DNA of 64,000 nucleotides, taken from Octadecabacter ascidiaceicola. Lineage in GTDB: Bacteria > Pseudomonadota > Alphaproteobacteria > Rhodobacterales > Rhodobacteraceae. Every line of letters starts with the position of its first letter. Position 1 is the stretch's first letter. A program made the translations under genes and the position numbers. The notes under the pieces are model-generated. The model ran no database searches. It was not told the DNA's origin and saw nothing but the letters and a program-made list of their open reading frames with translations. Positions 1 to 60,572 of the stretch are shown here, one piece after another. The stretch spans positions 434,001 through 498,000 of the forward strand of contig NZ_FXYD01000001.1 in assembly GCF_900185015.1 (NCBI RefSeq). Reading direction: 5' to 3'.

Positions 1-2244
1 CATACCAGCGGCCTTGCCATCCACATGCGCCGCCATTGCCAGCACCGCGCCAATGGTGACCACGCCCGTGCCACCGACGCCTGTGATGACTACATTGTGC
101 GTGCCATCAATCGCTGGCAATGCAGGGTCAGGCATGTCGGGCAACGTCACCGTCGCTGTCGCGGCCTTCTTCAACTGTGCCCCTTCGACCGTTACGAATG
201 ATGGGCAGAAACCATTTACGCAGGAGAAATCCTTATTGCAGCTCGATTGATCAATCGCGCGTTTGCGCCCAAGTTCAGTCTCGACGGGAACGATGGACAC
301 GCAATTGGATTGAACCCCACAGTCACCGCAACCTTCGCAGACGTCCGTGTTAATGAACACGCGTTTGTCTGGGTCAGGAAACAGCCCACGCTTGCGGCGA
401 CGGCGCTTCTCGGCGGCGCAGGTTTGTACATAAACAAGAACCGATACACCTTTGACTTCGCTCAACTCTTTTTGAACTTCCTCTAGGCGGTCACGCGTCG
501 AAATCTTAACCGCTGATGGCACATTCGAAAGATCAGCACCCTCCGCAGGATCATGGACCATGTGCACAGTCTCAACACCCATCGCCAATACTTCACGGCA
601 AATCTGGTCGTGGGTTAGGCCACCATCATTTCCCTGCCCGCCTGTCATCGCGACGGCGTCATTATACAGGATCTTGTAGGTCATCGTTGTGCCAGCCATC
701 AACGCAAAGCGGATCGCCTGAACGCCTGAATGGTTGTACGTCCCATCACCGAGGTTCTGAAATACGTGACCACGGTTTGAAAACGGCGCTTCACCCACCC
801 AGTTCGCGCCTTCGCCCCCCATCTGCGTAAACCCAACCGTGTCGCGGTCCATCCATTGAACCATATAGTGACACCCGATCCCCGCATAGGCGCGCGCGCC
901 TTCAGGAACTTTGGTGGACGAGTTATGCGGACAACCGGAACAGAAATACGGCAAACGCGCTGCGATTTCTTCAGCATTATCAGCACGTTTTGCTTCGGCC
1001 AGCTTTGCTAAGCCGCCCTCCACCTTTTCAGAGGCACAGCCTTCCTCAATCAACACTCCGCCGAGCTTCTCGGCGATAAAGATCGGATCAAGCGCAAATC
1101 GGGTTGGGAAAAACTCCTCGCGGCGGCCGTTCTCACGGTTTTCGCCCTTATGCCAGCCGTAAACACGACGTCCGTCACGATCATCAAAAATCGCTTCTTT
1201 GATCTGCACTTCGATTAGCTTGCGTTTTTCCTCAACTGAAATGATCAACTCCAGCCCCTCGGCCCATTCATGGAAGCTGTCCATATCAAGCGGCCACACC
1301 TGCCCTACCTTATAGGTAGTGATACCAAGACGCTCGGCCTCTGCCTCATCAATGCCAAGCAATGACATGGCATGCTGCAAGTCCAACCAGTTCTTGCCCG
1401 CTGCAACTAAGCCAATTTTCGCGCCTTTGTTGGGCCACACGACCTTGTCGATCTTATTGGCACGCGCAAACGCTTCTGCCGCAAAACGTTTGTGGTCAAT
1501 CATACGGGCTTCTTGATCGACAGGCGTATCGACAAGCCGGATATTCAAACCACCTTCGGGCATGGGAAATTCAGGAGTAACAAACTCTTGAGCAAACGGG
1601 TCACCATCCACAACACTGGTGACCTCAATCGTGTCTTTCATCGTCTTGAGGCCGACCCAAACACCTGCAAAGCGGCTTAACGCCCAGGCATATTGCCCCA
1701 TATCAAGGATTTCTTGCACCCCAGCTGGCGAAACGATGGGCATATAGGCATCCACCATCGCCCAATCAGATTGGTGCAAAGTCGTTGAACTTTCGCCTGT
1801 GTGGTCATCGCCCATCGCCATGATGACACCGCCTGCGGGCGAGGTTCCAGCCATGTTCGCATGGCGCATTACATCGCCCGATCGATCCACCCCCGGTCCC
1901 TTGCCGTACCACAAGCCAAAGACCCCATCATATGATCCCTCGCCGCGCAGTTCCGCCTGCTGGCTTCCCCAAAGGGCAGTCGCAGCCAAATCTTCGTTCA
2001 ACCCGCGTTGGAACGTTACATCTACCTCGGTGAGCTGCTTTTCCGCACGCTCCATCTGCATATCAACTGCGCCAAGCGGTGAACCTCGATACCCGGTTAC
2101 ATACCCAGCCGTATTCAGCCCCGCTGCCTCATCTCGTGCCTTTTGCATAAGCATCAGACGCACCAGCGCCTGTGTGCCATTCAGCAAGACCTGTCGTTTG
2201 CTCAGGTCGTAACGGTCATTCAGTGTAATATCTTGACGGGTCAT
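1..2244 (-). CDS. Indolepyruvate ferredoxin oxidoreductase, fused alpha/gamma type (3' end outside window)
   Basis: Reading the minus strand from the ATG at 2244 gives an uninterrupted 748-codon frame that runs off the left edge, so the C-terminus is missing. The start follows the purine-rich GGGAGGTG. The N-terminal part matches the thiamine-diphosphate half of fused indolepyruvate:ferredoxin oxidoreductases. Around residues 636-675 there is a cysteine-rich iron-sulfur motif (CEGCGDC followed by CNKDFSC). The last visible residues enter the gamma domain (ITGVGGTGVVTIG). Family members are about 1150 residues long and convert aryl pyruvates from aromatic amino acid breakdown to aryl-acetyl-CoA. 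The gene diverges from a LysR regulator at 2407, its probable regulator by position only. Identity is firm; the in vivo substrate is inferred. Confidence 0.9.
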   Translation of the reverse strand, partial: MTRQDITLNDRYDLSKRQVLLNGTQALVRLMLMQKARDEAAGLNTAGYVTGYRGSPLGAVDMQMERAEKQLTEVDVTFQRGLNEDLAATALWGSQQAELRGEGSYDGVFGLWYGKGPGVDRSGDVMRHANMAGTSPAGGVIMAMGDDHTGESSTTLHQSDWAMVDAYMPIVSPAGVQEILDMGQYAWALSRFAGVWVGLKTMKDTIEVTSVVDGDPFAQEFVTPEFPMPEGGLNIRLVDTPVDQEARMIDHKRFAAEAFARANKIDKVVWPNKGAKIGLVAAGKNWLDLQHAMSLLGIDEAEAERLGITTYKVGQVWPLDMDSFHEWAEGLELIISVEEKRKLIEVQIKEAIFDDRDGRRVYGWHKGENRENGRREEFFPTRFALDPIFIAEKLGGVLIEEGCASEKVEGGLAKLAEAKRADNAEEIAARLPYFCSGCPHNSSTKVPEGARAYAGIGCHYMVQWMDRDTVGFTQMGGEGANWVGEAPFSNRGHVFQNLGDGTYNHSGVQAIRFALMAGTTMTYKILYNDAVAMTGGQGNDGGLTHDQICREVLAMGVETVHMVHDPAEGADLSNVPSAVKISTRDRLEEVQKELSEVKGVSVLVYVQTCAAEKRRRRKRGLFPDPDKRVFINTDVCEGCGDCGVQSNCVSIVPVETELGRKRAIDQSSCNKDFSCVNGFCPSFVTVEGAQLKKAATATVTLPDMPDPALPAIDGTHNVVITGVGGTGVVTIGAVLAMAAHVDGKAAGM

Positions 2245-2406: not shown

Positions 2407-3318
2407 ATGGACTGGGACAAGCTAAGAATATTTCACGCAGTCGCTGACGCGGGTTCGCTGACTCACGCTGGTGATACACTGCATTTGTCCCAATCTGCCG
2501 TGTCGCGCCAAATTCGCGCGCTTGAGGAATCACTTTCAACGATTCTGTTTCACCGTCACGCCCGCGGTTTGATTCTGACAGAACAGGGTGAGCTGTTGTT
2601 TGACGCCACCAAATCCATGTCACGGCGCTTGGATGCCGCCAGCGCGCGCATCAAAGACAGCGCTGAAGAAGTGTTCGGTGAACTTAAGGTCACAACAACG
2701 ACCGGATTTGGCACACTTTGGCTCGCCCCCCGCTTGCCCGCGCTTTATGAAAAGTATCCTGACTTGAATATCGATTTGATGCTGGAGGAACGCGTGCTGG
2801 ACTTGCCAATGCGCGAAGCAGATGTCGCCATTCGTATGAAAGAACCGTCACAGGCCGACCTGATCCGCAAGAAACTGATGACCGTGCGCATGCGCCTTTA
2901 TGCATCCCAAACATACCTCGATCGCGTTGGAAACTTGGAGAGTATGAAGGATATCGGCAAGCATCGCCTTATTTGCCAAAGCCCGAATGCATTTCAGGTA
3001 GCTGCAGGGGCGACACTGGTTGAACAGCTTTTGTCCCACGACAAACCCAACCTTTTGAACGTGAATAACTACTTTGGCGTACTTCAGGCGGTCCTCTCGG
3101 ACCTCGGTATTGGCGTTTTGCCCGACTATGTTACCGAAGATTTCCCCAATCTTGTTCGCGTTCTTCCCGAGGTTGAAAGCGGCGAAGTCCCTGTTTTCCT
3201 TGCCTATCCTGAAGAACTGCGCCAATCCAAGCGCATCATGGCCTTCCGCGACTTCGTTCAAGATGAAATTATCTCCCACCGCAGAAGCATCCGCGACGGC
3301 GCATCGATTTTAAAATAA
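2407..3318 (+). CDS. LysR-family transcriptional regulator
   Basis: A 303-residue protein with a winged helix-turn-helix at residues 1-60 (MDWDKLRIF, then a LSQSAVSRQIRALE recognition helix) and a LysR substrate-binding domain from about residue 90. I chose the ATG at 2407 rather than the in-frame ATG at 2389. AAGGA lies 6 bases before 2407, and family members start with this M-x-W-DKLR motif. It is divergent from the indolepyruvate oxidoreductase, with a symmetric site between them, so it may regulate that gene. The ligand cannot be read from the sequence. Confidence 0.9.
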   Translation: MDWDKLRIFHAVADAGSLTHAGDTLHLSQSAVSRQIRALEESLSTILFHRHARGLILTEQGELLFDATKSMSRRLDAASARIKDSAEEVFGELKVTTTTGFGTLWLAPRLPALYEKYPDLNIDLMLEERVLDLPMREADVAIRMKEPSQADLIRKKLMTVRMRLYASQTYLDRVGNLESMKDIGKHRLICQSPNAFQVAAGATLVEQLLSHDKPNLLNVNNYFGVLQAVLSDLGIGVLPDYVTEDFPNLVRVLPEVESGEVPVFLAYPEELRQSKRIMAFRDFVQDEIISHRRSIRDGASILK

Positions 3319-3399
3319 TCTGCCATTTTCCGTAGCGAATGCGTCGTGACCCATGCGCCACACGCATAGCGGGATTGCACGGATGGCGGCCATTTGATC

Positions 3400-3428
3400 T
3401 TGATCGACTCAAACCTGCCTACTAATTG
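3400..3428 (+). promoter_or_regulatory. Putative sigma70-type promoter of the small RNA
   Basis: TTGATC at 3400-3405 and TAATTG at 3423-3428 are separated by 17 bases. This would start transcription close to 3432-3436, exactly where the first hairpin of the candidate small RNA begins. The -10 hexamer is only a moderate match to consensus. Confidence 0.45.
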
Positions 3429-3430
3429 TT

Positions 3431-3504
3431 CGGTATAGGGCAGCAATGCTGCTTTATACCTCCCTGTTGGACTTTGCCGGGCCTTGTGCCCGGCGTTTCT
3501 TTTT
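3431..3504 (+). ncRNA. Candidate trans-acting small RNA with anti-Shine-Dalgarno loop
   Basis: A compact, roughly 70-base unit lies between the lysR stop and purL. Hairpin 1 pairs GGTATA (3432-3437) with TATACC (3455-3460) and, across a 2x2 internal loop, GCAGC (3440-3444) with GCTGC (3448-3452). A single-stranded stretch CCTCCCTGTTGGACTTT follows and contains an anti-Shine-Dalgarno CCTCCC. The end is a strong intrinsic terminator, GCCGGGC (3476-3482) with GCCCGGC (3488-3494), then a T-rich run to 3504. This order (hairpin, exposed CUCCC, terminator) resembles alphaproteobacterial sRNAs of the suhB/MmgR (alpha-r8) kind; the family assignment is from memory of the architecture and unverified. 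Confidence 0.6.
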
Positions 3505-3657: not shown

Positions 3658-5817
3658 ATGCAAGAGCCAGCCATCACAACCGATCTGATTTCAGCCCACG
3701 GGTTGTCCCCTTCCGAATACGACCGGATATTAGAAATCATTGGGCGTGAGCCGACATTCACTGAACTCGGCATTTTCAGCGCCATGTGGAACGAGCACTG
3801 CTCTTATAAGTCCTCCAAGAAATGGCTGCGCACCCTGCCAACGGAAGGCCCACAGGTCATCTGCGGCCCAGGTGAAAACGCAGGTATCGTCGACATCGGC
3901 GACGGCCAATGCGTCGTCTTCAAAATGGAAAGCCACAACCATCCGTCCTACATCGAACCATACCAAGGCGCGGCCACAGGTGTAGGCGGCATTCTGCGTG
4001 ACGTGTTCACAATGGGCGCGCGTCCGATTGCAGCCATGAACAGCCTCAGCTTCGGTGAGCCAGCGCACCACAAGACCCGCCAGCTGGTGCATGGAGTGGT
4101 TGAAGGTGTCGGCGGCTACGGCAACTGTTTTGGCGTTCCAACTGTTGGCGGCGAAGTGCGATTCCACCCTGCCTATAACGGCAACTGCTTGGTCAACGCC
4201 TTCGCTGCGGGACTCGCAGATACGGACAAGATTTTCTACTCTGCGGCTTCCGGCATCGGCATGCCCGTCGTTTACCTTGGTGCGAAAACAGGCCGCGACG
4301 GCGTTGGCGGTGCAACAATGGCCTCCGCCGAATTCGACGACACGATTGAGGACAAACGCCCAACCGTTCAGGTTGGCGACCCTTTCACCGAAAAACGCCT
4401 GATGGAAGCGACACTTGAACTCATGGCCACGGGCGCTGTGATTTCCATCCAAGACATGGGCGCGGCTGGCCTCACCTGTTCTGCCGTTGAAATGGGCGAC
4501 AAAGGTGGCCTCGGTGTAAAACTGAACCTCGAAGATGTGCCACAGCGCGAAACCAACATGACAGCCTATGAAATGATGCTGTCAGAATCCCAAGAACGCA
4601 TGTTGATGGTTTTGAAGCCGGAACTTGAGGCCGAAGCCCGCGCCGTGTTCACCAAATGGGACCTCGACTTTGCAATCGTTGGCGAAACCATCGCCGAAGA
4701 CCGCTTCTTGGTGCTGCACAACGGCGAAGTTAAGGCCGACCTGCCACTGGCAACCCTGTCCGGCTCTGCCCCAGAATATGACCGCCCATGGGTGGAAACG
4801 CCTGCGGCTGAACCACTTGCCGACGCCCCAAACATCGACCCGATCGACGGCCTTAAAGCCCTCCTCGCCGCGCCAAACTACGCCGGCAAACAGTGGGTTT
4901 ATGAGCAATACGACAGCCAAGTCATGGCCGACACGGTCCGCGCACCGGGACTTGGTGCTGGCATCGTACGCGTGCACGGCACCGACAAATCCATCGCCTT
5001 CACCTCCGACGTGACCCCTCGTTATGTCAAAGCGAACCCAGAAATGGGCGGTGCACAGGCCGTGGCTGAAGCCTACCGCAACCTCACATCTGTTGGCGCG
5101 ACCCCACTGGCGACAACCGACAACATGAACTTCGGCAACCCCGAAAAGCCTGAAATCATGGGACAATTCGTTGGCGCGATCAAAGGTATCGGCAAAGCTG
5201 TTGAAGCTTTGGACATGCCAATCGTGTCCGGCAACGTGTCCCTTTACAATGAAACAGACGGCACTGGCATCTTGCCGACCCCGACGATTGGCGCTGTTGG
5301 CCTGCTGAAATCAACCGACGACCTAATCGCTGGAACGGCCCGTGAGGGCCACGTTCTGCTGATGGTTGGCGAAACAGGCACGCACCTCGGCCAATCCGCC
5401 CTCCTCGCTGAAGTCTTCAACCGCGAAGACGGTGACGCACCAAACGTCGACCTCGCAGCGGAAAAGCTGAACGGCGACTTCATCCGCGCCAACGCCGAAT
5501 GGATCGACGCTTGTACGGACCTCGCCGATGGTGGTCTCGCTTTGGCGGCCTTTGAGATGGCGGAAGCCGCCGAAACTGGCGTCCAACTCGCCAGCGAAGA
5601 CACAGCGGAACTGTTTGGCGAAGACCAAGCCCGTTACCTCATCGCGTGCAGCTTTGACAAAGCCGAACACCTGATGATCGCGGCAGGCAACGCTGGTGTA
5701 ACGATCCAAACCGTCGGTAAATTTGGCGGTGATCAGGTTACGATGGGCGATTCCGGTGCGCCGCTTGCGGACCTCGCAGCGACATTCCGGTCTACCTTCG
5801 CGGATACGTTCGCGTAA
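3658..5817 (+). CDS. purL: Phosphoribosylformylglycinamidine synthase subunit PurL
   Basis: A 719-residue protein of the small PurL type, which works with separate PurQ and PurS to convert FGAR to FGAM with ATP and glutamine in purine synthesis. Visible signatures are [10 protein letters not shown] near residue 45, the [11 protein letters not shown] substrate/metal motif near 95, and two AIRS-type halves. The length is normal for this class. The start has GAGGGG 7 bases upstream. It is probably transcribed separately from the lysR gene because the sRNA terminator at 3476-3504 lies between them. A 100-base gap separates it from bolA. Confidence 0.97.
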
Positions 5818-56517: not shown

Positions 56518-56594
56518 TGGCGCGGTTGACGGGACTCGAACCCGCGACCCCCGGCGTGACAGGCCGGTACTCTAACCAACTGAGCTACAACCGC
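56518..56594 (-). tRNA. tRNA-Asp (GUC), copy 1
   Basis: The minus strand folds as a 77-base cloverleaf with acceptor GCGGTTG/CAACCGC, the anticodon loop CTGTCAC (GTC) in a CCGGC/GCCGG context, a T arm with GGTTCGAGTCC, and an encoded CCA at 56518-56520. Confidence 0.95.
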
Positions 56595-56654: not shown

Positions 56655-56731
56655 TGGCGCGGTTGACGGGACTCGAACCCGCGACCCCCGGCGTGACAGG
56701 CCGGTACTCTAACCAACTGAGCTACAACCGC
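56655..56731 (-). tRNA. tRNA-Asp (GUC), copy 2
   Basis: The sequence is identical to copy 1 across all 77 bases, including the anticodon GTC and the encoded CCA. The two copies are 60 bases apart and co-oriented, so they are probably one transcript. Confidence 0.95.
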
Positions 56732-60296: not shown

Positions 60297-60395
60297 TTCG
60301 CATGCCTACCCTGCCCCTGAACAAAGCAAAACCCCAAGAAATCCGTTGATCCGAATCGAATTCGAAGGCATAGCGCGAGTGCATCTCTCGCCCGC

Positions 60396-60572
60396 GGGAG
60401 AGTCCGGTGGAAACGCCGGCGCCGAAGGAGCAACAACCCGGAAACTCTCAGGCAAATGGACCGCGGTGCGTAAAGCAATCTGGAGAGTGGCAGTTAGGCC
60501 TGCCCACCGAAGGAGCCGTCGCAGACCATCGTGGCGAAACTCTCAGGTCCCCTGACAGATGGGTTCACCGCC
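60396..60572 (+). promoter_or_regulatory. Tandem glycine riboswitch
   Basis: Two glycine-aptamer units occur in series. Unit 1 (about 60396-60465) reads GGGAGAGTCC, then CGCCGAAGGAGCAAC and AACTCTCAGGCAAA. Unit 2 (about 60480-60572) reads TGGAGAGTGG, then CACCGAAGGAGC and AACTCTCAGG. The GGAGAG...CGAAGGAGC...ACTCTCAGG order is diagnostic. A small GCCGA/TCGGC hairpin (60571-60584) lies before the ribosome site at 60601. It should turn on the downstream oxidase when glycine is abundant. Confidence 0.95.

Follow-up and report, generated by a model that had tools for sequence, protein, structure and literature searches.

What is encoded between the lysR-type gene and purL in the window (the whole 64,000-nucleotide stretch of Octadecabacter ascidiaceicola DNA analysed here), and to which family does it belong? 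An earlier note, made from the letters alone, had proposed an alphaproteobacterial small RNA of about 70 nt, an independent gene that has its own promoter and a core able to cover Shine-Dalgarno sites, and had pointed to the suhB/alpha-r8 family. Here we report that the independent gene with its own promoter stands and that the family is not supported: judged from sequence, the element is a real, conserved small-RNA gene and, by position and synteny, the orthologue of SorY of Rhodobacter sphaeroides. All of the proposed parts (promoter pair, hairpin, exposed CCTCCC and terminator) were found at slightly shifted positions (Table 1), including the 17-nt spacer, which separates CTTGAT (3399-3404) from CTAATT (3422-3427); the interval originally given, 3400-3504, misses the putative operator upstream.

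Table 1. Features of the sRNA locus and other annotated elements of the window
Feature	Position	Strand	Remarks
Indolepyruvate ferredoxin oxidoreductase gene	1-2244	-	divergent from lysR
LysR-type regulator, VtlR/LsrB orthologue	2407-3318	+	Pfam HTH_1, LysR_substrate
Putative VtlR operator	3353-3378		ATGC-N7-GCAT (3353-3367) overlapping GCAT-AGC-GG-GAT-T (3364-3376); just upstream of promoter
sRNA gene, complete	3399-3504		promoter to T run; between lysR and purL
RpoH-type promoter	3399-3427	+	CTTGAT-N17-CTAATT; predicted start near 3434
5' hairpin of sRNA	3432-3460	+	-19.4 kcal/mol, z -5.35
Predicted RNA	3434-3502		~70 nt; strong 5' hairpin, exposed ACCUCCCUGUUGGACUU core, intrinsic terminator
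Conserved 17-nt core ACCUCCCUGUUGGACUU	3458-3474	+	anti-Shine-Dalgarno seed
Intrinsic terminator	3475-3504	+	GCCGGGC-loop-GCCCGGC + T run; stem 3475-3495
purL	3658-5817	+	NCBIfam PurL, 965.6 bits; downstream neighbour, outside the unit
Two identical tandem tRNA genes	56521-56594, 56658-56731	-	
Glycine riboswitch aptamer	60385-60473	+	68.2 bits

The predicted RNA is unusually stable as a whole (-36.4 kcal/mol, z -5.22; 0 of 200 shuffles equally stable), and the terminator stem, followed by TTTCTTTTTC, has a z of -4.20 on its own. The CCTCCC motif lies in the linker, inside the core, where closure by the hairpin is possible for the core's first bases only, and the arrangement of a core following a 5' hairpin matches that of SorY (RF02651). 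The 5' hairpin and terminator would protect the RNA while keeping CCUCCCUGUUGGACUU largely unpaired.

A scan with the 17-nt core as key returned 118 stretches, nearly all from Rhodobacterales. Judged by their neighbours, 95 of the loci are linked to lysR, those of R. sphaeroides and the window among them, and 19 are linked to ompR. The core is identical in R. sphaeroides SorY and more than 110 loci, an invariance that holds by construction among the scanned loci, which were selected by the core itself; the features outside it were not selected in this way. In the lysR-linked group the hairpin always ends within 4 bases of the core, and its arms fold at -14.5 kcal/mol with their own partners and at -10.0 when swapped between species. 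Among 15 same-genus copies 94.5% of hairpin cells are paired, and there are 11 doubly changed cells, where shuffles give 3.1 and slid controls no more than 5. The earlier note held that arms mutating without compensation would speak against the sRNA; the arms do compensate, and covariation is seen. One terminator pair likewise shows an A-U/G-C exchange on both sides (16 of 44 sequences).

The promoter pair is RpoH-like in sequence rather than sigma-70-like, and a consensus scan of the region for sigma-70 promoters found none. CTTG is present in 92-94 of the 95 lysR-linked loci, the last T of the -10 element in all 95 and the spacing of 17 in 82, with a mean match to CTTGAA/CTAAAT of 9.8 out of 12 (7.2 in shuffles); CTTGA-N17-TA..T (CTTGA-N17-CTAAAT) is near-invariant across this group, and the 19 ompR-linked loci stand at background. 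For comparison, the RpoH1 consensus of S. meliloti is CTTGAA-N15-16-CCTATAT (PMC4843759). SorY in R. sphaeroides is RpoHI/RpoHII-dependent, Hfq-bound, stress-related and induced by singlet oxygen (PMC5036791), and its published start maps to the base equivalent to 3434, fitting the spacing from the -10 element (PMC6238624). At the level of sequence, the window copy thus appears to carry an own promoter of the RpoHI/RpoHII type, and we infer that in O. ascidiaceicola it is transcribed from here under RpoH control.

The gene order lysR-sRNA-purL-bolA-grx is common to the window and the R. sphaeroides SorY locus, where LysR and PurL are 77% and 80% identical to those of the window and are followed by the bolA and grx homologues. 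The SorY match in that genome (G051) starts at 1,632,645, next to the experimentally mapped 5' end at 1,632,642 (PMC6238624), and it is this coordinate that identifies the genome as R. sphaeroides 2.4.1. SorX has its published site in the 3' UTR of RSP_0847 (ompR) in R. sphaeroides (PMC8625941, PMC6238624), and we found R. sphaeroides SorX behind ompR. A second, weaker copy in the O. ascidiaceicola genome (G000:C7:225430-225504, or L002 1501-1575; 35.7 bits) directly follows an ompR-type response regulator, and it is this copy that is orthologous to SorX. Because the locus of the window element matches that of R. sphaeroides SorY, and SorX lies separately behind ompR, we assign the window element to SorY. 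It shares with R. sphaeroides SorY (RSs1543) the neighbourhood, the 17-nt core, the promoter class and the hairpin-core-terminator plan, the differences being a shorter 5' hairpin and the promoter CTTGAT/CTAATT in place of CTTGAA/CTAAAT.

The strongest competing identification comes from Rfam itself. Searched against the whole window, the SorX model (RF02784) scores 52.7 bits (threshold 46.6, E 6e-10), above the second-best SorY model at 42.5 bits, which falls short of its threshold of 111, and core, terminator and fold are closely alike in R. sphaeroides SorX (RSs2461) and the window element. The latter could then be SorX itself, a 3'-UTR-derived sRNA cut by RNase E from the upstream mRNA, here that of lysR. 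We consider this improbable. The SorY threshold is passed in only 1 of 295 family genomes and so marks near-identity to R. sphaeroides, not the family; the SorX model gives 43.6 bits on genuine R. sphaeroides SorY, so the Rfam label cannot tell the paralogues apart. SorX is moreover defined by processing from the 3' UTR of ompR, where this genome has its other copy, whereas the window element follows a LysR gene, not ompR, and has its own conserved promoter, a feature that SorX loci lack. The Rfam SorX label at this Rhodobacterales locus is therefore probably that of the wrong paralogue, the loci being SorY orthologues.

Membership in the suhB/alpha-r8 (MmgR) family, the earlier suggestion, is suggested by a like architecture of hairpin, CCUCCC linker and terminator, and the suhB model weakly matches core relatives in other families (37.7 bits); yet the window reaches only 17.5 bits with that model (RF00519, gathering 41), and suhB RNAs have another core (UUUCCUCCCUAGACUU) and another genomic place. 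In other Alphaproteobacteria, 19 of 28 inspected SorX-like loci directly follow a LysR gene whose product is 40-53% identical to that of the window, against 0 of 30 suhB loci, so that position largely refutes a reading we regard as highly improbable. Equally hard to credit is a transcription attenuator in the purL 5' leader. The element does share its strand with purL, stands about 155 bases before the ATG and ends in a terminator, but several relatives (L063, L066, L078 and others) have their purL at a distance of 1-4 kb, no purL accompanies the second copy, SorX, and the conserved part is the core, not an antiterminator. The description 'upstream of purL' is accordingly true in the window and incidental elsewhere: among relatives purL may be as close to the sRNA as about 0.1 kb or more than 4 kb off, and the link to lysR persists.

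With the element assigned to SorY, its likely mode of action can be considered. The one published SorY target is takP, whose regulation was shown in R. sphaeroides; in that species the takP leader (GUCCACAAGGGAGG / GUCCACAAGGGAGGAAUGCCAUG), assigned via PDB 2hzk, pairs near-completely with the core over the ribosome-binding site, as expected of a translation blocker and in agreement with the idea that the exposed CCTCCC occludes Shine-Dalgarno sites. By analogy with SorY and takP of R. sphaeroides, the core would bind transporter and metabolic mRNAs at ribosome-binding sites of the GGGAGG type and so keep them from being translated under heat or oxidative stress. We put at about 0.87 the probability that the window carries a sorY gene for a trans-acting, presumably Hfq-dependent sRNA of ~70 nt whose core blocks ribosome-binding sites under stress.

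A search of the O. ascidiaceicola genome for a takP orthologue at E <= 1e-60 found none, so that the targets here must differ. Apart from the sRNA, the genome has complements of the core with at most one mismatch only within two coding regions. Among genes with CAGGGAG before the ATG, the best duplex (-28.3 kcal/mol) is with the divergent indolepyruvate ferredoxin oxidoreductase gene, in which the core of the sRNA finds a match at the ribosome-binding site CAGGGAGG; relatives do not retain the extended duplex (10 of 59 at or below -20), and with the small control set an enrichment of GGGAGG could not be shown. The targets found by pattern are weak candidates. The oxidoreductase gene itself stands beside lysR in 59 relatives.

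The LysR neighbour points to a further layer of control. Reciprocal tblastn with the window LysR and S. meliloti LsrB recovered the same 25 plasmid or chromid records, with the same locus for both queries in nearly all, one of them annotated VtlR, and on this comparison the flanking LysR is a VtlR/LsrB orthologue. VtlR/LsrB activates the AbcR small RNAs in rhizobia and Brucella. Just ahead of the promoter, the dyad ATGC-N6..8-GCAT occurs at 65 of 95 SorY loci (shuffled mean 0.4), and it occurs at 0 of 19 SorX loci, single-base shuffles and SorX loci being the controls; S. meliloti and R. leguminosarum also carry this dyad ahead of abcR1. The published VtlR box is GCAT-N3-TG-N3-T (PMC7486931), from which the window's box differs by one base, G for T; a relaxed form, GCAT-N3-[TG]G-N3-T, is present at 62 of 95 SorY loci (shuffled 1.2) and the strict form at 9 of 95 (shuffled 0.5). 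Control of SorY by VtlR through this putative operator is a new prediction. LsrB has been reported to sense reactive oxygen (PMC8844928), and VtlR control would therefore give SorY a direct redox input besides RpoH.

Because the flanking LysR is a VtlR/LsrB orthologue and the dyad is the one at abcR1, SorY occupies the AbcR locus, as relatives of its core do in many other alphaproteobacterial families. The S. meliloti order is trxB-lsrB-AbcR1-AbcR2-arsR, where the two RNAs immediately after lsrB give ar15 scores of 110 and 106 bits. AbcR1 and AbcR2 (alpha-r15, RF02345; Rhizobiaceae, Brucella) follow vtlR/lsrB directly on the same strand and have a matching operator dyad, anti-Shine-Dalgarno seeds and transporter targets, and AbcR2 has an RpoH promoter; in the window, too, vtlR/lsrB is adjacent with the putative operator upstream. 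AbcR RNAs differ in their length of 112-121 nt, three stem-loops, two seeds and tandem arrangement. With a cutoff of E 5 the window gave no ar15 match, and the ar15 class scan was empty even though Rhizobiaceae loci clearly contain ar15, an emptiness with no bearing on absence. The case for kinship between SorY and AbcR is built on position, operator, architecture and function; sequence gives it no support.

Other alphaproteobacterial families extend the comparison. Sub-threshold SorX matches occur in 42 of 140 of their genomes and have in common ACGUCUCCCAGACGUGAAGCCUCCCUGUU and a terminator; loci with enough upstream sequence show the trxB active-site motif in most cases and the dyad in about half. 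A covariance model, R1, built solely from these other-family ACGUCUCCCAGACGUGAAGCCUCCCUGUU RNAs recovers the window element at 39.1 bits (E 2.9e-9), as well as R. sphaeroides SorX (45.6 bits) and SorY (31.7 bits); SorX and SorY are therefore kin to a vtlR-locus RNA. Against AbcR the model has no match, the best score (11.8 bits, E 0.24) coming from the terminator only.

Based on these observations, we lean towards viewing vtlR/lsrB as one ancient alphaproteobacterial sRNA locus, in which a VtlR-bound dyad would drive an anti-Shine-Dalgarno sRNA directly downstream. AbcR in Rhizobiaceae and SorY in Rhodobacteraceae would occupy this locus, many other families would hold a SorX-like RNA (ACGUCUCCCAGACGUGAAGCCUCCCUGUU) that has no Rfam family of its own, and SorX would have arisen later, as a copy taken up into the 3' UTR of ompR. 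The SorY promoter would carry both VtlR and RpoH inputs, which S. meliloti would split between AbcR1 and AbcR2. Such a view joins two literatures, that of the Rhodobacter singlet-oxygen sRNAs and that of the VtlR/LsrB-AbcR circuit of rhizobia and Brucella; the literature searched, to which the original descriptions of SorX and SorY do not belong, holds no relevant link of SorX or SorY with AbcR, and earlier notice is possible.

Several individual loci merit mention. On Octadecabacter antarcticus plasmid pOA307_63 (L319, 3001-4095) a lysR-sorY pair lies beside repC, away from purL, its LysR 92% identical to that of the window. The ompR-linked copy of O. ascidiaceicola has a degenerate core, ACTTTTTCCCTGTTGGACTT in place of ACCTCCCTGTTGGACTT, unlike the other same-genus ompR-linked copies fetched, whose core is intact. 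A third SorX match in this genome (C5:116041, 26.4 bits) is a terminator behind a dihydropyrimidine dehydrogenase-like gene and was judged to be chance. Two SorX copies ~80 bases apart, both above threshold, are found at L237 (G210:C3:381885-382107), on the ompR strand and about 280 bases behind ompR. The RNA of ACGUCUCCCAGACGUGAAGCCUCCCUGUU and terminator behind trxB-vtlR is widespread (L238-L245, L276-L294) and scores below every Rfam threshold, and several of these other-family loci carry a second CCTCCCTG copy just upstream.
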